From Desulfobacterales bacterium (lineage in GTDB: Bacteria; Desulfobacterota; Desulfobacteria; Desulfobacterales; Desulfosalsimonadaceae), in the NCBI GenBank assembly GCA_018335195.1, contig JAGXKN010000027.1:1-45184 (forward strand): a DNA stretch of 45,184 nucleotides, given 5' to 3'. Position 1 is the stretch's first letter; each line of letters begins with the position of its first letter. The notes under the pieces were generated by a model, which worked only from the letters and a program-made list of their open reading frames with translations, searched no databases and was not told where the DNA came from. This document shows, one piece after another, positions 279-13,422 of this stretch. Both the position numbers and the translations under genes were made by a program.

Positions 279-1910
279 ATGAAAACATGCGTGTCTGCAC
301 AGGGAAAATTCAAATACGGCATTCATCACCCGGCTTTCCGGGTCAAGCACCTGCGCGGAGACGATCGCGTATGCAATCTGGGTACGTTTGCAGACGGCGA
401 GCCCTGCATCAACCGGGTCAATTTCCCCGGGTGCGACGTCGAGGTGCCGTGCGCGGATACGGTCTACGAGGTCCCCAATGCGTTGGGTTTTCGAGGCGTG
501 ACCTACATTAACAAGCGGTGGGCGGATGAAAACGCTGCGGATCCGGTTGGTATGATCCGGCTGCCAGAGGCTCCGGATGTATCCTTCTCCGCCGTGCTCT
601 CGCAGTGGGCCGGGGGCGGGGCGGTTGATCCGGAGCAGAAATCGCGGATGCTCCGGGCGCTTCCCGAACCCCTGCAGCTTGCCCTGGCAGAAACCGGCAC
701 GGACGCCGGGGATCTGTCCTGCCTGGCAGAGATGGTATGCGAATTTACATTCAACCCGGAAACCGGCCGGCCCGACGGCCTGGTATTTCAAAAAGACGAA
801 ACCGGCGCCAGCCGTGCGGTAATCCATAACCGCACGCTTTTCGAAGTGCTGGCCAACAATCCGTATCTGCCGGATGCCTACAAGGCGGCCATGGTCCTGC
901 GCCCGGGCGTGCAGGGGCCCAACGAAATCATGGGCCAGTGGCAAAGCCCTGACGGATCTTCCCACGTGTACGAATACCTGAGGTGCAACAGTTATATTCC
1001 GTGGGGGCATTACGCGGCCAACATGGCCGAAGACAGCATCCGCTACCGGATGTCTGCTCTCGGGTACCAGGACATGCGCGGCATGCGTCACCTGTATTAC
1101 CAGCGAACTTACGTGCGAATGGCCGCCGACCTGGGCCTTGAGGTGAAAATCCAGCAGCGGGCGCTTTGCGAAGACGAGCTCGAGGATCTGCGCTGCCGGC
1201 TGCTGGAGCGGCTCGCAGATGCGCGCCTGCGTGAAAACCTGAGTTTCAACCGTACCCTTTGGGGTTGGAATTACGGATTCGACTATGCCCCGACCCGGTA
1301 TCGCCTGCATGCGTCCCATCAGCAGGTGCATCAGCAGTATGCCATGATTCCCAAATCGGTTTCACAAACCCCCGGCTTTGACAGTCCCATGCCGTCGTAC
1401 GCGGTGGGGGACATGGTCGAGGCGTTTGCGTTGCAATACGCCGAGCAGACCGGGGCGGCCTTTTTTGACGCCTACATCGCCGCCATTGAGAACAATTGCC
1501 GTATGCAGGGCGCGCCTGAAGGCGAGCACAGCCTGGTGATTTATTCGGATGAAAACGTCCTGGTATTTGTGCCCAAGGCCCAGACATCCCAGTGGGAGGT
1601 TAATGTCATGACCCGGCAGCCTGTGGGCAATATCGTGGAGACCGATATCCAAGTGCGGCGCTCGCTGGATATCGCGCTGCTTACGGCGGCCAGGACGCTT
1701 TCGAATATGGGCGCGCGCATGATCACCTCCTACGAAATTTCCAAGCGGATGGATGCCGCAGATACCCACCAGCGGCTGATTTATACCCTTCTGCCCCGCC
1801 TGCCCGAATCACCGGGCGCATTTTCAGAGTCCCAGCTCCGGTGGATCAACGGGCATTACCCGGAGGATTTTGCCGCGGCCTGCCGGGCGGCCTGTCCGGG
1901 CGAATTGTAA
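279..1910 (+). CDS. Divergent GalT/HIT-superfamily-like protein (hypothetical)
   Basis: A 543-residue protein that I do not recognise as a named enzyme. Two stretches resemble galactose-1-phosphate uridylyltransferase and related HIT-superfamily nucleotidyl transferases. Around residues 340-357 the sequence HASHQQVHQQYAMIP lines up with the family pattern GASxxHPHxQ...P, keeping one His (about 351) and the following Gln but replacing the first His of HPH. Near the C-terminus, YTLLPRLPESPGAF (about 502-515), followed by a WINGHYPEDFAA stretch, resembles the GalT tail 'PRLT..GF....YIN..PPEEAA'. There is no signal peptide or membrane segment. The ATG at 279 follows a GGGGGA stretch. A terminator lies directly after the stop, so it is probably a single-gene unit upstream of gltB. 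The family link is inference from motifs; the substrate is unknown. Confidence 0.55.
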   Translation: MKTCVSAQGKFKYGIHHPAFRVKHLRGDDRVCNLGTFADGEPCINRVNFPGCDVEVPCADTVYEVPNALGFRGVTYINKRWADENAADPVGMIRLPEAPDVSFSAVLSQWAGGGAVDPEQKSRMLRALPEPLQLALAETGTDAGDLSCLAEMVCEFTFNPETGRPDGLVFQKDETGASRAVIHNRTLFEVLANNPYLPDAYKAAMVLRPGVQGPNEIMGQWQSPDGSSHVYEYLRCNSYIPWGHYAANMAEDSIRYRMSALGYQDMRGMRHLYYQRTYVRMAADLGLEVKIQQRALCEDELEDLRCRLLERLADARLRENLSFNRTLWGWNYGFDYAPTRYRLHASHQQVHQQYAMIPKSVSQTPGFDSPMPSYAVGDMVEAFALQYAEQTGAAFFDAYIAAIENNCRMQGAPEGEHSLVIYSDENVLVFVPKAQTSQWEVNVMTRQPVGNIVETDIQVRRSLDIALLTAARTLSNMGARMITSYEISKRMDAADTHQRLIYTLLPRLPESPGAFSESQLRWINGHYPEDFAAACRAACPGEL

Positions 1911-1916
1911 GCGGAT

Positions 1917-1938
1917 CTGCCGGATCGGCGGGTTTTTT
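1917..1938 (+). terminator. Intrinsic terminator after the GalT-like gene
   Basis: CTGCCG (1917-1922) pairs with CGGCGG (1926-1931) around a GAT loop, followed by G and six Ts. It begins 6 nt after the stop codon at 1908-1910, which separates this transcript from gltB. Confidence 0.6.
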
Positions 1939-2011
1939 CTTTCGTTTTCGTCTCCGAAATCCGGCGTTGCGCGCATGGCGGGCAATGTCGCGGAAACCGC
2001 CGGAATTTATC

Positions 2012-2040
2012 TTGCCAAGGCCGCCTCAAGCCGTTAGACT
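2012..2040 (+). promoter_or_regulatory. Possible sigma-70-type promoter of gltB
   Basis: TTGCCA (2012-2017), a 17-bp spacer and TAGACT (2035-2040) match a -35/-10 pair at 4 of 6 in the -10. It lies between the terminator and the gltB start, leaving a leader of about 58 nt. This is a motif reading only. Confidence 0.35.
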
Positions 2041-2104
2041 TCCTCTTACCTGCGGCAAGTGCGTATGCCGATGGGCCAATTTCGAATCCGCACGGAGATC
2101 CTTT

Positions 2105-5100
2105 TTGGCATATTCCCGCAAAAGCTCGGACCTCTCGGAGCTCTATGATCCCGCCTACGAACACGATGCCTGCGGCGTTGGTTTTATCTGCAGCATCCGG
2201 GCCGAAGCCTCTCACGAAATTGTAAAAAACGGACTTCGCATACTCGACAACCTCACCCACCGGGGCGCCTGCGGCTGCGACGAGACCAGCGGAGACGGCG
2301 CAGGCATCCTGATTCAGATGCCGCACGCGTTTTTCGCAAAAGCCTGTGGCGAACAGGGGATCGACCTCCCTGCCGCCGGCCAGTACGCGACCGGGCTGTT
2401 TTTTTTGCCCACGGAACCGGACCAGCGGGATTTCTGCACGATGCAGTTTGAGGAAATGGTCAGTGATGAAGGGTTGGTGTTTCTCGGCTGGCGGACAGTG
2501 CCTGTGGAACCGGAGGCCCTGGGATACGAGGCCGGCCGGCTCAGGCCCTTTATCACCCAGGCGTTTGTGGGAAAACCTGCGGATATTACCGACCCCCTGG
2601 CATTTGAGCGCAGGCTCTACGTGATCCGGAAATTGACCGAAAACACCGTTTGGGCCTCGGATCTGGCCGACAAGGCCATGTTCCACATTTGCAGCCTGTC
2701 GGCCCGTACCATGGTATATAAGGGCATGCTCATGGCCGATCAGATGCCCCGTTTTTATCCGGACCTGCAGGATTCGGACATAACCAGCGCAATGGCCGTG
2801 GTCCACCAGCGGTACAGTACCAACACTTTTCCGACCTGGGATCTGGCCCAGCCATTTCGCTTTTTGTGCCACAACGGTGAAATCAATACCCTGCGGGGCA
2901 ATGTCAACTGGATGGCTGCAAGAGAGCACTTGTTTCAGTCCGCCCGGTTCGGCGCGGACATGGCCAGGCTTCTGCCGATCTCCACACCCGGAGCCAGCGA
3001 CTCGGCCATTCTTGATGATGCCATGGAACTGCTTTACCATTCCGGCCGGTCGCTTCCGCACGTGATCATGATGCTGATTCCGGAGGCGTGGGAGCATGAC
3101 CCGCGCATGGATGATGCGAAAAAAAGCTTTTACCGGTACCATGCGTGCATGATGGAGCCGTGGGATGGTCCGGCCGCCATTGTTTTTACCGACGGCGAGC
3201 GGGTGGGGGCCGTGCTCGACCGAAACGGGCTGCGGCCGGCAAGATACGTTGTCACCCGGGACGATACGGTCATCATGGCCTCTGAGGCCGGCACCCTGGA
3301 TATGGCACCGGAAAACGTAAGGGCCAGTGGCCGGCTCCAGCCCGGCCGGATGTTTTATATCGATCTGAATCAGCGGCGCATTGTCGAGGACACCGAGATC
3401 AAACAGGAGATCGCCGGCAGACGCCCCTACCGGCAGTGGCTCGATGAAAATCTCAGAACCCTTGAGGACCTGCCCGACCCCGAGCCGGAGGACTTGCCCG
3501 AGGGACCGCCCCTGCGGGTCCGTCAACGGATTTTCGGCTACAGCATGGAGGACCTGGACATGCTGCTTTCGGCCATGGCCCGGGAGGGAAAGACCCCGGT
3601 GGGCTCCATGGGTGACGATATCTCCATTGCCGCCCTTTCGAACCGCCCCAGGCTCCTTTTTGACTATTTCAAGCAATTGTTCGCCCAGGTGACCAATCCC
3701 CCCCTGGACGCCATCCGGGAGGAACTCGTCACCGGCCTGTCCCTGACCCTCGGCGCCGAGCAGGACCTGTTCCAGGAGACCCCGCGCCATTGCCGGCAAC
3801 TGCAGCTGATGCATCCGGTATTGACCGACGCGGACCTTTCACGGATCCGGCAGTCGGATATTGCGGATCTGCGCACACAGACCCTGTCCATGCTGTTTGC
3901 CCCGGATGAAGGTCCGGCGGGATTTAAGCGCTGCCTGGACAAGCTGTGTGCGGAGGCCGCCACATCGGTGGAAAACGGCGTATCCATATTGATTCTGTCG
4001 GACCGCTTTGCCGCGCCCGCCCGCGTTCCGATTCCCTCGCTGCTGGCCACGGCGGCCGTCCATCATCACCTGATCCGCCGGGGGATTAGAACCCGGTGCG
4101 GCATTATCCTGGAAACCGGCGAGGTCCGGGAGATCCATCACTTCTGCTGTTTGATCGGATACGGGGCCGGTGCGGTCAATCCCTACCTGGCGCTGGAAGC
4201 GGTGGAGAACATGGCCCGGGAAGGAGAACTCGATTCGCTCCACCCGGAGGCTGCCGCAGTTAATTACATCGCCGCGGTTAACAAGGGCATCCTCAAGGTG
4301 ATGTCCAAGATGGGCATTTCCACCCTCCAGAGCTACCGCGGGGCCCAGGTGTTCGAGTGCCTCGGCCTTACCGAGGAGCTGGTGGAAGCCTATTTTACCG
4401 GAACTGCCACCCGCATCGGCGGCGCCGACCTGCATATGCTGGCTGAAGAGGTGCTCGGGCGGCACGACAGCGCGGTCAAGAAGGCACCCAATGCTTCGTG
4501 GGCGGATCTGGAGGTCGGCGGGAAGTACAAGTGGCGGCGCGGCGAAGAAAAGCACCAGTACAACCCCATAACCATCGCCAGGCTCCAGCAGGCGGTGCGG
4601 CAGGATGACCGGCAGGCCTGGGACGAATTCACGATCCGGGTCAATGAACAAAACCGGCTGGGAGGCTTGCTCCGGGGGCTTTTCGATTTCAAGCCGGCAG
4701 CCGAGCCGGTACCTGTTGAATCAGTCGAGTCCTGGACCGAAATCGTCAAGCGTTTTAAAACCGGAGCCATGTCTTATGGATCCATCAGCCGCGAGGCCCA
4801 CGAAACCCTGGCCGTGGCCATGAACCGCATCGGCGGCAAAAGCAACTCCGGCGAGGGCGGCGAGGATCCGGACCGGTATTTTCCGGATGAAAACGGCGAC
4901 TGGCGCAACAGCGCCATCAAGCAGATCGCATCGGGCCGCTTCGGCGTCACAGGGGCATACCTGGCCAGTGCCGCAGACCTGCAGATCAAAATGGCCCAGG
5001 GCGCCAAGCCTGGCGAAGGCGGACAGCTTCCAGCCTTCAAGGTGTATCCCTGGGTCGCCCGGACACGGCACGCCACCCCGTACGTGGAGCTCATCTCGCC

Positions 5101-6652
5101 CCCGCCGCACCACGATATCTATTCCATCGAGGACTTGGCCCAGCTGATCCATGACCTGAAAAACGCCAACCCTGAAGCCCGGGTCAATGTCAAGCTCGTC
5201 TCCGAAGTCGGGGTGGGCACGGTGGCTGCCGGCGTGGCCAAGGCCAAGGCAGATGTGATTTTGATCAGCGGCGATGTCGGCGGCACCGGTGCGGCTCCGC
5301 TCACCTCCATTCGTCACGCCGGCCTGCCGTGGGAACTCGGCCTGGCAGAAGCTCAGCAGACCTTGGTACTAAATGGTCTTCGCAGCCGGGTGGTGATCGA
5401 ATGCGACGGTCAGCTCAAGATCGCCCGGGATGTGGTGGCCGCGGCCCTGCTCGGCGCAGAAGAGTTCGGGTTCGGCACCATTGCCCTGGTGGCGCTGGGA
5501 TGTATCATGATGCGCGTATGCCATCTAAACACCTGTCCGGTGGGCATTGCCACCCAGGATCCGGAGCTTCGGAAGAAATTCGCAGGCGAGCCTGAGCACG
5601 TGGTTCGGCTCATGCGGTTTATCGCAGAAGACGTGCAAAAGGAGATGGCGGCCCTGGGTTTCCGTTCCGTCAGTGAAATGGTGGGGCGGACCGACTGCCT
5701 GGATCCGAGTTCGGCGCTGACACACTGGAAGGCCCGCGGCATCGATCTTTCGCGCATCCTTGCGCCCGCCCGGGCCAAGGCGGGGCTCTCAGACCGGTGT
5801 TTTGCCGCGGGCCAGGATCACGCGCTGGAAAAGGCCCTGGACAAAAGCCTGATCGAACAGTGCCGGCCGGCGCTGGACGCAAAAACTCCGGTCCGCCTGG
5901 ATGTTGCGATCAATAACACCCAGCGAACCGTGGGAACGATGCTCAGCTACGAAATTTCAAAACGCTGCGGCGAGGCCGGGCTTGCCGCGGACACCATCGT
6001 GATCAACGCATCCGGCACGGCCGGACAGAGCTTCTGCGCCTTCGGCGCACCGGGCTTAAGCTTTCACCTGCGCGGGGAGGGCAACGATTATTTCGGAAAG
6101 GGTCTTTGCGGTGCCCTCCTGACCGTGCGGCCGCCTGAAGGAAGCGCTTTTGCCGCGGAGGAAAACATTATCATCGGCAATGTCGCCTTCTACGGGGCCA
6201 CCAGCGGCGAGGCGTTTATCAGCGGCATGGCGGGCGAGCGCTTTTGCGTGCGAAACAGCGGCGTCCATACCGTGGTGGAAGGGGTCGGCGACCACGGCTG
6301 CGAATACATGACCGGCGGCAAGGTGGTGGTGCTGGGCAGCACGGGCCGGAATTTTGCAGCCGGCATGAGCGGCGGGGTGGCCTACGTGCGGGATACGGCT
6401 GGGGATTTTGCCGAGAACCGCTGCAACCCGGAGCGGGTCGATCTTGAGGCAATCGAAGATCCGGACGAGCGCGATGAAGTTCGCGATCTGATCCGTCGGC
6501 ATCACGCCTATACAGGCAGCCGGCTGGCCGGCCGCATCCTGGATGACTGGCGGGCCGAAGCCGGACGGTTCGTGCGGGTCATGCCGACCCAGTACAAAGA
6601 GGCCTTGAAATATCTGGCCGCAGAAGACGCTGAAGCCGGGAAGACTTCCTGA
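2105..6652 (+). CDS. gltB: Glutamate synthase (NADPH) large subunit
   Basis: GOGAT alpha subunit: it hydrolyses glutamine and uses the ammonia to convert 2-oxoglutarate into glutamate. The frame is open from 1841, but the TTG at 2105 is preferred. A GGAG (2095-2098) sits 6 nt before it, and the start places the N-terminal nucleophile Cys at residue 23 (HDACGVGF), giving the short cleaved propeptide expected of class II glutamine amidotransferase domains. The resulting 1515 residues match the usual 1500-1530. Domains in order are amidotransferase, central domain, FMN-binding synthase domain (SYGSISREAHE, GEGGEDPDRY) with the 3Fe-4S cysteines C-x5-C-x4-C at about 1133-1144, then the GXGXG beta-helix domain. 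gltD follows after 20 nt, so the two subunits are co-transcribed. Confidence 0.97.
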   Translation: MAYSRKSSDLSELYDPAYEHDACGVGFICSIRAEASHEIVKNGLRILDNLTHRGACGCDETSGDGAGILIQMPHAFFAKACGEQGIDLPAAGQYATGLFFLPTEPDQRDFCTMQFEEMVSDEGLVFLGWRTVPVEPEALGYEAGRLRPFITQAFVGKPADITDPLAFERRLYVIRKLTENTVWASDLADKAMFHICSLSARTMVYKGMLMADQMPRFYPDLQDSDITSAMAVVHQRYSTNTFPTWDLAQPFRFLCHNGEINTLRGNVNWMAAREHLFQSARFGADMARLLPISTPGASDSAILDDAMELLYHSGRSLPHVIMMLIPEAWEHDPRMDDAKKSFYRYHACMMEPWDGPAAIVFTDGERVGAVLDRNGLRPARYVVTRDDTVIMASEAGTLDMAPENVRASGRLQPGRMFYIDLNQRRIVEDTEIKQEIAGRRPYRQWLDENLRTLEDLPDPEPEDLPEGPPLRVRQRIFGYSMEDLDMLLSAMAREGKTPVGSMGDDISIAALSNRPRLLFDYFKQLFAQVTNPPLDAIREELVTGLSLTLGAEQDLFQETPRHCRQLQLMHPVLTDADLSRIRQSDIADLRTQTLSMLFAPDEGPAGFKRCLDKLCAEAATSVENGVSILILSDRFAAPARVPIPSLLATAAVHHHLIRRGIRTRCGIILETGEVREIHHFCCLIGYGAGAVNPYLALEAVENMAREGELDSLHPEAAAVNYIAAVNKGILKVMSKMGISTLQSYRGAQVFECLGLTEELVEAYFTGTATRIGGADLHMLAEEVLGRHDSAVKKAPNASWADLEVGGKYKWRRGEEKHQYNPITIARLQQAVRQDDRQAWDEFTIRVNEQNRLGGLLRGLFDFKPAAEPVPVESVESWTEIVKRFKTGAMSYGSISREAHETLAVAMNRIGGKSNSGEGGEDPDRYFPDENGDWRNSAIKQIASGRFGVTGAYLASAADLQIKMAQGAKPGEGGQLPAFKVYPWVARTRHATPYVELISPPPHHDIYSIEDLAQLIHDLKNANPEARVNVKLVSEVGVGTVAAGVAKAKADVILISGDVGGTGAAPLTSIRHAGLPWELGLAEAQQTLVLNGLRSRVVIECDGQLKIARDVVAAALLGAEEFGFGTIALVALGCIMMRVCHLNTCPVGIATQDPELRKKFAGEPEHVVRLMRFIAEDVQKEMAALGFRSVSEMVGRTDCLDPSSALTHWKARGIDLSRILAPARAKAGLSDRCFAAGQDHALEKALDKSLIEQCRPALDAKTPVRLDVAINNTQRTVGTMLSYEISKRCGEAGLAADTIVINASGTAGQSFCAFGAPGLSFHLRGEGNDYFGKGLCGALLTVRPPEGSAFAAEENIIIGNVAFYGATSGEAFISGMAGERFCVRNSGVHTVVEGVGDHGCEYMTGGKVVVLGSTGRNFAAGMSGGVAYVRDTAGDFAENRCNPERVDLEAIEDPDERDEVRDLIRRHHAYTGSRLAGRILDDWRAEAGRFVRVMPTQYKEALKYLAAEDAEAGKTS

Positions 6653-6672
6653 GCGCCGGGGCAAATAGGTGA

Positions 6673-8145
6673 ATGTCCATGGGAGATCCGAAGGGATTCC
6701 AAAAATATAGCCGCCAGACACCCAAAAAGCGCAACTCAGCAGAGCGGATCAACGATTTCTCCGAGATCTATGCCCCCTTTGCCAGGGAGACCCTCCGGCA
6801 GCAAGCCGCCCGATGCATGTCCTGCGGCGTACCCACCTGCCATGCTGGATGTCCGCTGGGCAACCTTATTCCGGACTGGAATCATGCCGTTTACCGGGGG
6901 CAATGGCAAAAGGCCGTTGAACTGCTGCACCGGACCAATAATTTTCCGGAGTTCACCGGCCGGCTGTGCCCGGCCCCGTGCGAACCCGCCTGTGTCCTGG
7001 CCATCAACGAGCCGCCGGTTACTATCGAGGCCATTGAAAAGGAAATTATTGAATTTGCATTTGCGCAGGGGTGGGTTAAGCCGGAGCCGCCGGAGGCCGA
7101 AACCGGAAAAAGCTTGGCAATTGCTGGATCTGGTCCCGCGGGTCTGGCTTGCGCCCAGCAGCTCTGCCGCGCAGGCCACAGCGTTACGGTATTCGAGCGC
7201 GCCGACAGGATTGGCGGGCTCCTGCGCTACGGAATTCCGGATTTCAAGATGGACAAGCAGGTTCTTGACCGCCGCTTGGCGCAGATGCGCAAAGAGGGCG
7301 TTCGGTTTGAAACCGGCGTGGACGTGGGCCGGGATCTGGGAAAAGCCGAAATCGCCGCCTTTGATGCCGTGGTATACTGTATCGGTACCACCGTCGCGCG
7401 GGACCTGCAAATCCCGGGGCGCGAGCTCGACGGCATCCATTTTGCCATGGATTTTCTTACCCAGCAGAACCGCCGACTGGCGGAACCGGATTTCAAGCCG
7501 CATCCCCGCGAGGAAATCCATGCAAAGGACAAACGCGTGATCGTGATCGGCGGCGGGGACACGGGCAGCGATTGTACCGGCACCTGTCACCGGCAGGGGG
7601 CGGCCTCGGTGGTCAACTTCGAGCTGATGCCCAGACCACCGGAAACACGGCCTGAACAAAACCCCTGGCCCTTCTGGCCCTTGACGCTCCGCACCAGCCC
7701 GTCGCATGAAGAAGGCGGTGAGCGCCACTGGGGGATTCTCACCAAGGAATTTGTCGGGGAACAGGGACGCGTGACCGGGCTGAAGACAGTTCACGTGCGG
7801 CTTGACACGGGGGCCGACGGCAGGCGGACCGTCAGCGAAATTCCCGGCACCGAGCAGCATTGGCCGGCCGACCTGGTGCTTCTGGCCATGGGATTTACCG
7901 GCCCGGAAACCGCGGCCGTTTCGGCACAGTCCGCCGTCGTGATAGACGGCCGGGGGCATATTCAGACGGATGAAGGGTATATGACCAATGTTGACGGGGT
8001 GTTTGCCGCAGGAGATGCCAGGCGGGGCCAGTCCCTAATCGTCTGGGCCATCTTCGAGGGCCGGGAAGCCGCCCGGGCGGTGGATATCTACCTCACCGGC
8101 ACAACCCGCCTGCCGAGCAAGGGCGAAGGGGACCTGGAAGGGTGA
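6673..8145 (+). CDS. gltD: Glutamate synthase (NADPH) small subunit
   Basis: GOGAT beta subunit, 490 residues, which passes electrons from NADPH through FAD and 4Fe-4S clusters to GltB. The N-terminal domain has the cysteine pattern [14 protein letters not shown] (C48, C51, C56, C60) and a second set [10 protein letters not shown] near residue 99. An FAD-binding Rossmann motif ([12 protein letters not shown]) lies near 150 and an NADPH-binding motif ([13 protein letters not shown]) near 290. The ATG at 6673 is preceded by TAGGTGA. The gene lies 20 nt downstream of gltB and ends just before a convergent relic reading frame. Length and motif order are normal for the family. Confidence 0.97.
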
Positions 8146-8687: not shown

Positions 8688-8720
8688 TTACAAAATTGTA
8701 AATTGATGTTACAAATTTGT
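8688..8720. promoter_or_regulatory. Two tandem dyads 21 bp apart, probable activator sites
   Basis: GTTACAAAATTGTAA (dyad 8688-8701) and GTTACAAATTTGTCG (dyad 8709-8720) share the core ACAAWWTTGT. Their starts are 21 bp apart, two helical turns, so they would face the same side of the DNA. They lie about 80-110 bp upstream of the sigma-54 promoter of glnD, a usual distance for enhancer-binding proteins. They do not match the NtrC consensus, so the bound protein is unknown. Confidence 0.6.
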
Positions 8721-8798
8721 CGTACCTTTCTGCGTTCCCCGCAATTGGATTCAATTTCAAGTTTTTGATTTTATAGTTTATTTTGTCTTTATAAAATT

Positions 8799-8814
8799 TT
8801 GGCACATAAGTTGC
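8799..8814 (+). promoter_or_regulatory. Sigma-54 promoter of glnD
   Basis: TTGGCAC (8799-8805), five bases and TTGC (8811-8814) match the -24/-12 consensus exactly, with GG and GC at the required spacing. Transcription would start near 8825, just upstream of a GGAGG ribosome site at 8831-8835. The promoter lies inside an open frame, so any glnD start placed at or before 8829 is unlikely. Confidence 0.85.
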
Positions 8815-8840
8815 TTTTTAAACCACAAATGGAGGGATCT

Positions 8841-11883
<3,043 letters not shown>

Positions 11884-11950: not shown

Positions 11951-13366
11951 ATGACGCAGCCGAAAAACGTGTTGGATCTGATCAAACAGGAGGGCATCCG
12001 GGTTGTGGATGTCCGGTTCATGGATTTTCCCGGTATCTGGCAGCATTTTACCGTGCCGGTCAGCGAAATGGACGAGGATTCCTTTGAGGACGGCTACGGT
12101 TTTGACGGCTCGAGTCTCAGGGGCTGGCAACCGATTAACGCCAGCGACATGCTCGTGGTACCGGATCCGGCAACCGCCAAAATTGACCCGTTTTACGAGG
12201 AAAAGACACTGGTGTTAATCGGCAACATCGTGGACCCGGTCACCCGGGAGGCCTATTCCCGGGATCCGCGCCACGTGGCCCATAAGGCCGAAAATTACCT
12301 CAGGCAGAGCGGCATCGGGGATACCGCATTTATCGGGCCGGAAGCCGAGTTTTTTGTTTTTGACAACGTGCGTTTTGACTCCCAGAGAAACCAGTCCTTC
12401 TACATGGTGGATTCCGTGGAGGGCGTCTGGAACACCGGCCGTGACGAGAACCCGAACCTGGCCTACAAGCCGCGGCACAAGGAAGGCTACTTCCCGGTGC
12501 CGCCCATGGACAAGGGGCAGGACATCCGGACAGAGATGATGCTGACCCTGGAGGACCTGGGAATTGACGTGGAATGCCAGCATCACGAGGTGGCCACTGC
12601 CGGCCAGGGTGAAATTGATATGCGGTTTAAGCCGCTGATGGAAATGGGCGATCAGCTGGTGTGGTTCAAATACGTGCTCAAAAACGTGGCCAGAAAATAT
12701 AACAAGACCGCCACATTCATGCCGAAACCCCTTTTCGAGGACAACGGCACGGGCATGCATACGCATGTGAGTATCTGGCGCGACGGCAATCCCATGTTTG
12801 CCGGGGACAAGTATGCAGGTCTTTCCCAGGAGGCCCTTTATGCCGTGGGCGGAATCCTAAAACACTGCAAGGCGCTGTGCGCATTTACCAATCCCACGAC
12901 AAACTCTTACAAACGCCTTGTGCCGGGATTTGAGGCACCGGTGAACCTGGCCTATTCGAGCAGAAACCGCAGTGCCGCAGTCCGGATTCCCATGTACTCT
13001 GCCTCGCCAAAGGCCAAGCGCATCGAGTTCCGCACCCCGGATCCGTCCTGCAACGGGTACTTGGCGTTTTCAGCCATTCTCATGGCGGTAATCGACGGCA
13101 TCGAAAACAAGATTGATCCGGGCGATCCCATGGACAAAAATATCTATGATCTGCCGCCGGAGGAACTCGCCCAGATTGACTCGGCCCCGGGATCGCTTGA
13201 AGAGGCCCTGCAGAGCCTTGCAGAGGATCACGAATTTTTGCTCAAGGGCGACGTGTTCACAGAGGACGTCATCGAGCGCTGGATCGAATACAAAAGAGAA
13301 AACGAGGTGGATGCCATCAAGCTGCGGCCGCATCCGCATGAGTTTTTCCTGTATTACGACATTTAA
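11951..13366 (+). CDS. glnA: Glutamine synthetase, type I
   Basis: A 471-residue GSI enzyme that makes glutamine from glutamate, ammonia and ATP in the cytoplasm as a dodecamer. The ATG at 11951 has a strong AGGAGG 6 nt upstream. Seen motifs are FDGSSLRGW near the N-terminus, [10 protein letters not shown] (metal-binding Glu), [29 protein letters not shown] and the [17 protein letters not shown] region. Near the C-terminus, [10 protein letters not shown] keeps the Tyr adenylylated by GlnE in GSI-beta enzymes, so control by adenylylation is likely although glnE is not in this window. The upstream glnD and glnB supply the PII signal, and a terminator follows. Confidence 0.98.
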
Positions 13367-13392
13367 CCCCCGCACAGCGGGACAAAATAAAG

Positions 13393-13422
13393 AGGCGGTC
13401 CTTTTTCGGGCCGCCTTTTTTT
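13393..13422 (+). terminator. Intrinsic terminator after glnA
   Basis: AGGCGGTCC (13393-13401) pairs with GGGCCGCCT with one G-U pair, around a short T-rich loop, and is followed by a run of Ts to 13422. It ends the glnD-glnB-glnA transcript 27 nt after the glnA stop. Confidence 0.88.

Follow-up and report, generated by a model that had tools for sequence, protein, structure and literature searches.

The window, i.e. the whole 45,184-nucleotide stretch of a Desulfobacterales genome analysed here, carries glnD, glnB and glnA in a row on its forward strand. The first of these genes (8844-11456) encodes the PII uridylyltransferase, with a GGYGR-SDVD motif and GlnD_UR_UTase, HD and ACT domains, the second (11545-11883) a PII protein with Tyr51 in its T-loop, and the third (11951-13366) glutamine synthetase. 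Behind glnA lies an intrinsic terminator on the same strand (13389-13420; -21.5 kcal/mol, z -5.2), a hairpin followed by a U run that is strong by folding and absent from the list of the pattern scan. That scan returned no forward terminator-like site between the three genes and two weak ones inside glnD. Because the genes share a strand, have no listed terminator between them and are followed by a strong one, glnD-glnB-glnA is probably a single operon ending with glnA. Further upstream are gltBD (1841-8145) and, ahead of gltB, a 543-aa open frame (279-1910) that has no Pfam match. At least three PII genes are present in the genome: the one behind glnD (11545-11883), one behind amtB (G000:C71, L401) and one beside glnE and the gene of an enhancer-binding protein, or EBP (G000:C17, L083).

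The start codon of glnD was taken as the GTG at 8844, downstream of a Shine-Dalgarno sequence GGAGGG that can be read directly at 8831-8836 (+). At 8799-8814 of the same strand, just where the first-pass annotation had placed it, stands an exact -24/-12 element, TTGGCAC-N5-TTGC (TTGGCAC at 8799-8805, TTGC at 8811-8814), whose -24 GG and -12 GC have the spacing of a sigma-54-dependent promoter. Sigma-54 transcripts start about 12 bases past the -12 GC, a geometry that puts the expected start at 8826 (+). The genome encodes RpoN (445.6 bits against a cut-off of 277.35) together with EBPs. Among the matches listed from the open-licence literature, no title deals with a glnD under sigma-54 control in this group.

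By window base composition only, an exact element (TGGCACNNNNNTTGCW) is expected 0.046 times per window and 3.4 times per genome, and in a scan of the window the glnD copy is the sole match with fewer than two mismatches. With about three exact matches per genome to be expected from composition, the element might be a chance match and glnD constitutive from another promoter. This is extremely improbable, as the same place holds a -24/-12 in every readable relative while the flanking DNA has diverged. The GTDB family set comprises 36 genomes, many of the compared genomes being fragmented; 32 of them have glnD, complete or as a large piece (E <= 1e-190), three have weak matches only and one has none. 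Thirty glnD loci were fetched, two of which (L036 and L037) lack the gene start, and all of the remaining 28 carry the element in the form TGG(C/T)A(C/T)-N5-TTGC. Sigma-54 control had been presented as usual for glnA, against a glnD normally described as weakly or constitutively expressed. In a probable operon headed by glnD, glnA would still be under sigma-54; the unusual point is that glnD shares this promoter.

Upstream of the promoter lie two dyads of the TTACA-N4-TGTAA type, both exact: a distal one, TTACAAAATTGTAA (8688-8701), and a proximal one, TTACAAATTTGTcg / TTACAAATTTGTCG (8709-8722), with ACA cores 110 and 89 bp ahead of the TGG of the -24 element and the start-to-start distance of 21 bp that had been reported. 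From window base composition only, TTACANNNNTGTAA is expected 0.03 times per window and 2.2 times per genome, and a pair at 21 bp 0.0004 times per genome. The genome holds four exact TTACANNNNTGTAA sites, every one of them paired, upstream of glnD, amtB and a split glutamate synthase. Single sites behave differently: with 5 strand matches, against 4 for the reversed control, the 12-base dyad core alone shows no excess, dyads with 1-3 mismatches are at chance level (11 vs 6.9 expected), and a further count of such dyads gave 26 per strand vs 35 in the control. Single dyads, be they exact cores or sites with 1-3 mismatches, were therefore rejected as evidence, and only paired or positioned sites are meaningful.

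Such positioned sites recur throughout the family. Both ACA-N4-TGT cores are found in 26 of the 27 glnD upstreams long enough to contain them (L029 is too short), and the exception, L021, has one exact core. The two are 21 bp apart in 24 upstreams, 20 bp in one and 22 bp in one. The distal core stands 107-113 bp ahead of the TGG, the proximal core 86-92 bp. This positional conservation of both dyads and promoter, on which the first-pass annotation had staked its proposal of an enhancer arrangement ahead of glnD, supports a sigma-54 promoter with a helically phased enhancer pair. The dyads are, admittedly, simple AT-rich palindromes whose core alone is not rare, and a weak sigma-70-like match overlaps 8770-8797, so that they might instead be sites of a repressor or other non-EBP regulator acting on an ordinary nearby promoter. 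The doubling in helical phase, 86-113 bp ahead of the -24 element, is however enhancer geometry, and similar geometry is seen at other target promoters, which makes such a regulator very unlikely.

Another dyad-like core, ACAATTTTGT, lies at 11519-11528 within the stretch 11517-11530, just ahead of the glnB ribosome-binding site, and is partly kept in the close relatives L010 and L012. As a second enhancer it was rejected: there is no -24/-12 match there, and most of the 13 loci compared do not preserve the core.

NtrC sites have the consensus GCAC-N5-8-GTGC, and the upstream activator sequence of NifA is TGT-N10-ACA. The former occurs in none of the 28 glnD upstreams, each taken to a length of at most 200 bp; the latter is absent from the window's own glnD upstream and present in two of the 28. 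Neither of these, nor the VnfA consensus, is found in the window's own upstream, and all three were discarded as the identity of the dyads. The remark in the first-pass annotation that the dyads do not match NtrC is supported.

Between enhancer and promoter lies a feature that had gone unremarked there: an exact match to the consensus of integration host factor (IHF), CAAGTTTTTGATT (YAANNNNTTGATW; 8758-8770, +), marking a putative DNA bend. The consensus of IHF is WATCAANNNNTTR. It appears as WATCARXXXXTTR in a passage of PMC7962754. Exact sites are present in 9 of the 27 family glnD upstreams, always 36-38 bp past the proximal core, and absent from the other 18; dinucleotide shuffles, which ignore relatedness, gave a mean of 0.43 at the same offset and a maximum of 4 in 500. 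With the consensus placed between enhancer and -24 element and four HU/IHF-type genes in the genome, the site is consistent with an IHF-assisted promoter.

Beyond glnD, the dyads can be used to search for a regulon. A pair pattern, TTACANNNNTGT-N7-27-TACANNNNTGT, which allows spacings of 18-38 bp, matches in 27 of the 36 family genomes, and its reversed control matches once across all 36. The 53 distinct family pairs are spaced by 20-24 bp (n = 24, 21 of them at 21 bp) or by 30-33 bp (n = 29), with none at 25-29 bp, i.e. by about two and three helical turns. A second pattern, one dyad with a sigma-54 element 66-94 bp downstream, yields 49 sites in 26 of the 36 genomes vs 2 reversed-control matches. 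Duplicate copies of one fetched locus entered the count as one, and the genes behind the sites were named with reference proteins partly drawn from pair loci. On this basis the downstream genes encode GlnD (24 sites), split glutamate synthase (12), AmtB-type transporters (5), GSIII, the type III glutamine synthetase (4), and unrelated proteins (2), the last two sites abutting contig ends. Nitrogen-assimilation genes thus stand behind 45 of 47 readable sites, or 21 of 23 with glnD left out.

The window's own genome has dyad-plus-sigma-54 sites at exactly three places: ahead of glnD, ahead of amtB with a PII gene behind it (L401, C71), and ahead of the split glutamate synthase operon (L400, G000:C72:34325-39481). 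This operon begins with a 376-aa protein that has no Pfam or NCBIfam match and that we take to be the amidotransferase subunit of glutamate synthase, followed by Glu_synthase and GXGXG/Pyr_redox proteins and the small chain of carbamoyl-phosphate synthase. The notion that one regulator governs the nitrogen island as a unit does not survive this search: the latter two sites lie on other contigs than glnD, and gltBD in the window has neither a dyad pair nor an exact -24/-12. Of the two glutamate synthases, only the split enzyme, which has both, looks regulated by the system. In a phylum sample of 148 genomes, pairs were also seen upstream of genes identified by eye as glnA, amtB and nifH, against a background of 10 reversed-control matches that is higher than in the family.

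Which protein, then, binds the dyads? The sigma-54 activator domain is matched 26 times in the genome. Of these matches, 21 are complete or almost so and were extracted as candidates, a partial 22nd and four weak ones being left out; all but L101 were scanned against NCBIfam. None of the 20 passes the NtrC cut-off (best 471.8 vs 558.6 bits). One, encoded at G000:C17:39990-41510 (L083:2991-4511) beside glnE and a PII gene, passes the nifA model with 562.7 vs 528.85 bits. It consists of GAF, AAA (Sigma54_activat) and HTH_8 domains by Pfam, with GAFTGA visible in the alignment. The suggestion that an enhancer-binding protein other than NtrC acts here is thereby supported, and this NifA-like EBP is likely the best candidate activator. 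Orthologues with 74-100% identity occur in 32 of the 36 family genomes (two as fragments) and in all 18 good ones. The closest named relatives of the EBP come from Desulfobacteraceae metagenome-assembled genomes, one of which, from a 'Tobar' sample, has an EBP that is 96% identical. Cultured relatives carrying the EBP include Desulfoluna spongiiphila AA1 and Desulfobotulus alkaliphilus ASO4-4 (L244, L254). Autoregulation of the EBP gene was dismissed, no dyad being present within 250 bp upstream.

The neighbourhood of the NifA-like EBP points the same way. Of 100 EBP loci from relatives, 57 passed a filter that asked for flanks of 2.8 kb or more to either side and 55% identity and that removed duplicates; 31 of these have nitrogen-assimilation genes nearby and 26 have no such gene within the flank examined. 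Such genes are also found near the EBP in 15 of 20 distant loci, which were chosen by hand, vs none of 24 loci of control EBPs with somewhat shorter flanks. In the phylum sample, an EBP match at E <= 1e-130 is present in 27 of 29 genomes with a pair vs 91 of 148 overall, a co-occurrence whose Fisher p of 3e-5 ignores phylogeny and whose E-value cut admits nif-type NifAs too. In nine genomes (G061, G086, G103, G116, G120, G123, G133, G140 and G149), a dyad pair lies within 3 kb of such an EBP gene; only two of these are represented in the protein tree described below, G086 in the clade of the window's EBP and G061 by a nif-type copy beside nifH. Taken together, the link between EBP and dyads is strong but circumstantial.

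The promoters themselves at these loci mostly speak against the link. A dyad pair is present in 4 of the 100 EBP loci of relatives vs 0 in the control. At starts of nitrogen genes beside the EBP in relatives, dyad plus sigma-54 was found for GlnA in 2 of 13, GlnD in 1 of 5 and AmtB in 2 of 6 cases, the two AmtB cases having the same site and identity and apparently being one sequence present twice, and for PII in none of 37. Since by the pattern used there is mostly no site, these adjoining promoters were set aside as evidence. Site counting in 40 distant EBP loci was likewise abandoned for having too few sites (2 dyad-plus-sigma-54 sites vs 0-1 for other palindromes). Sigma-54 control of glnD is therefore supported for the window's family by conservation and is not claimed for the phylum, as nitrogen genes beside the EBP in relatives mostly have no recognisable site.

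Nitrogen genes of Geobacter are reportedly controlled by a two-component system, GnfL/GnfM, and the window's genome itself encodes several EBPs with receiver domains. The promoter and dyads could thus be real but bound by a two-component response-regulator EBP, either GnfM- or NtrC-like. The matches listed in the literature search for GnfM concerned other subjects. We consider such a regulator unlikely, if the least remote of the alternatives, given the failure of all 20 scanned EBPs at the NtrC cut-off. Moreover, none of 18 other EBP loci in the genome lies near PII, GlnE, GlnA, AmtB or GlnD (flanks of about 3-4 kb for most), while the NifA-like lineage is repeatedly found near these genes and, in the nine genomes named above, near dyad pairs.

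This NifA-like protein differs in several respects from the NifA of nitrogen fixation. In the window's genome, the best nifH match reaches 35.7 bits against a cut-off of 394.35, i.e. the EBP does not accompany nitrogenase genes there. Five of the 36 family genomes have nifH over the cut-off, and two more reach about 310 bits. NifH was found near the EBP in none of the 57 filtered and none of the 20 distant loci, as opposed to 6 of 10 nif-type loci, five of which also have a PII gene. The nifH carriers G010, G026 and G035 encode a second NifA-like protein that is about 42-45% identical, in G010 and G026 on the same stretch as nifH. In a tree of 51 proteins, the clade of the window's EBP is split from the nif-type proteins with support of 100/99. 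Members of the nif type include plasmid proteins annotated as NifA (L322-L324) and an EBP from a D. vulgaris plasmid (L321); this label was partly given by identity only, and L296 and L300, so labelled, fall into the clade of the window's EBP, with L297 apart. The latter, outside the clade, is also beside AmtB and GlnA.

Differences extend to the presumed DNA contacts. The recognition helix reads GN...TTxRKxxYK in Desulfobacterales members of the clade, with variation in distant members, and typically G-W-(V/I)-Q...TxRQxxYR in nif types. Five nifH upstreams of 400 bp (L171-L175, from G017, G035, G031, G010 and G026) contain ACA-N4-TGT cores whose outer bases are different, among them exact CGACA-N4-TGTCG in two, and hold no TTACA-N4-TGTAA and, by the pattern used, no -24/-12. 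This suggests that the sites of nif-linked NifA and of the assimilation EBP are distinct at their outermost positions. In distant relatives with EBPs about 57% identical (L273 and L277), sites upstream of GlnA-like genes read CTACA-N4-TGTAG, and the core TACA-N4-TGTA may thus predate the outer TT/AA. Since the nifA model accepts the EBP of a genome without nifH over the cut-off, it would be misleading for automatic annotation to call the protein a nif-specific NifA; acceptance by this model need not imply nitrogen fixation.

Several described systems bear comparison. In D. vulgaris Hildenborough, DVU1231-1233, DVU3392 and DVU1823-1821 are what we take to be amtB, glnA and glutamate synthase genes. 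For its regulator DVU1949, the part of Kazakov et al. (2015; PMC4641369) available here predicts a regulon of nine operons for nitrogen metabolism and transport and reports co-transcription with iorAB in four genomes. Among the matches listed from the open-licence literature, no other paper dealt with DVU1949. Like DVU1949, the window's EBP is a one-component protein of the GAF-AAA(GAFTGA)-HTH kind, with targets in ammonium assimilation (45 of 47 sites) provided that it binds the dyads; the difference is that glnD goes without mention in that part of PMC4641369, which gives regulon predictions only. A homologue with 49% identity to the window's EBP (G072, L384; outside the tree) lies directly behind iorAB-like genes, called by sequence motif, which fits the description of DVU1949. 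Judging by the context of this one locus, the two are probably of the same regulator lineage.

For Aquifex aeolicus Nlh1, a NifA-like GAF-AAA activator, a role in nitrogen assimilation instead of fixation has been speculated (excerpt of PMC9866876, on Batchelor et al. 2013). It is a structural precedent: its GAF domain (4g3k) is the best GAF-only PDB match to the EBP, with 84.6 bits vs 49.4 for the NifA GAF entry 8jrc, although Nlh1 belongs to another phylum and the best PDB match over the whole length of the EBP is a NifA (9qq6, 405.6 bits). With NifA, the EBP shares domain order and presumably PII-linked signalling and IHF-assisted sigma-54 activation, besides passing the NCBIfam cut-off; its own clade, its recognition helix, a glnD upstream without TGT-N10-ACA and a genome without nifH over the cut-off set it apart. 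VnfA1 of Azotobacter vinelandii, an EBP that controls the vanadium (alternative) nitrogenase, is described in the consulted part of PMC9542535 as binding paired GT(T/A)C-N6-GTAC sites. These have the TAC-N6-GTA frame in common with TTAC-N6-GTAA and differ in the outer bases, GTAC-N6-GTAC being present in none of the 28 glnD upstreams. In Geobacter sulfurreducens, an RpoN promoter of glnB-glnA was validated by primer extension and an RpoN-regulated glutamate synthase operon was predicted (Leang et al. 2009, PMC2725144); in the sections seen, this work neither mentions glnD nor names the EBP for glnB. The kind of system is therefore known in outline; new here are the motif, a glnD promoter whose geometry is fixed, and an activator that stands apart from nif-linked NifA.

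With good confidence, we read the element as a sigma-54 promoter driving the probable glnD-glnB-glnA operon, served by the NifA-like EBP on the paired dyads with the help of IHF bending. This one-component EBP would sit as two dimers on the same side of the helix, at the paired TTACA-N4-TGTAA dyads, and IHF at 8758-8770 would bend the intervening 80 bp such that the dyads reach RNA polymerase-sigma-54 at 8799-8814. Under nitrogen shortage, the AAA ring would then open this complex. The signal could enter via the GAF domain as PII-UMP and/or 2-oxoglutarate, as in known NifAs: according to the parts available of PMC6490700 and PMC9866876, several NifAs are activated by PII-UMP, and the A. vinelandii NifA has a GAF domain that binds 2-oxoglutarate. 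Tyr51 of PII and the nucleotidyltransferase motif of GlnD make a loop from GlnD via PII and the activator back to glnD-glnB-glnA possible, in which GlnD and its substrate PII would both come from the very promoter whose activator they inform, a feedback on the nitrogen sensor. A gene that the first-pass annotation called normally weak or constitutive would thus be placed inside a possibly nitrogen-inducible feedback loop.

More broadly, though with less assurance, we favour the view that a NifA-family one-component activator, and not NtrBC, is the general master regulator of nitrogen assimilation in much of the Desulfobacterota, including lineages without nitrogenase, in which database annotation would name it nif-specific, with clade members also in metagenome-assembled genomes of Hydrogenedentota and Rokubacteria. 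Its sites would be paired (T/C)TACA-N4-TGTA(A/G) dyads, and in the window's family it would also drive glnD, so that the protein informing PII about glutamine would be under a regulator, likely controlled by PII, that induces it. If true, this would explain how relatives of sulfate reducers such as this one, where no NtrC passes the curated model, can control nitrogen assimilation, and it defines the regulon by a motif and a geometry that are precise and can be tested.

Finally, dyad pairs were also noticed ahead of genes for porin-like proteins (L059, L065, L068, L144 and L164), with a weak Gcw_chp match for L059. These loci mostly have no recognised -24/-12 at the expected place, and the genes may extend the regulon to the outer membrane.
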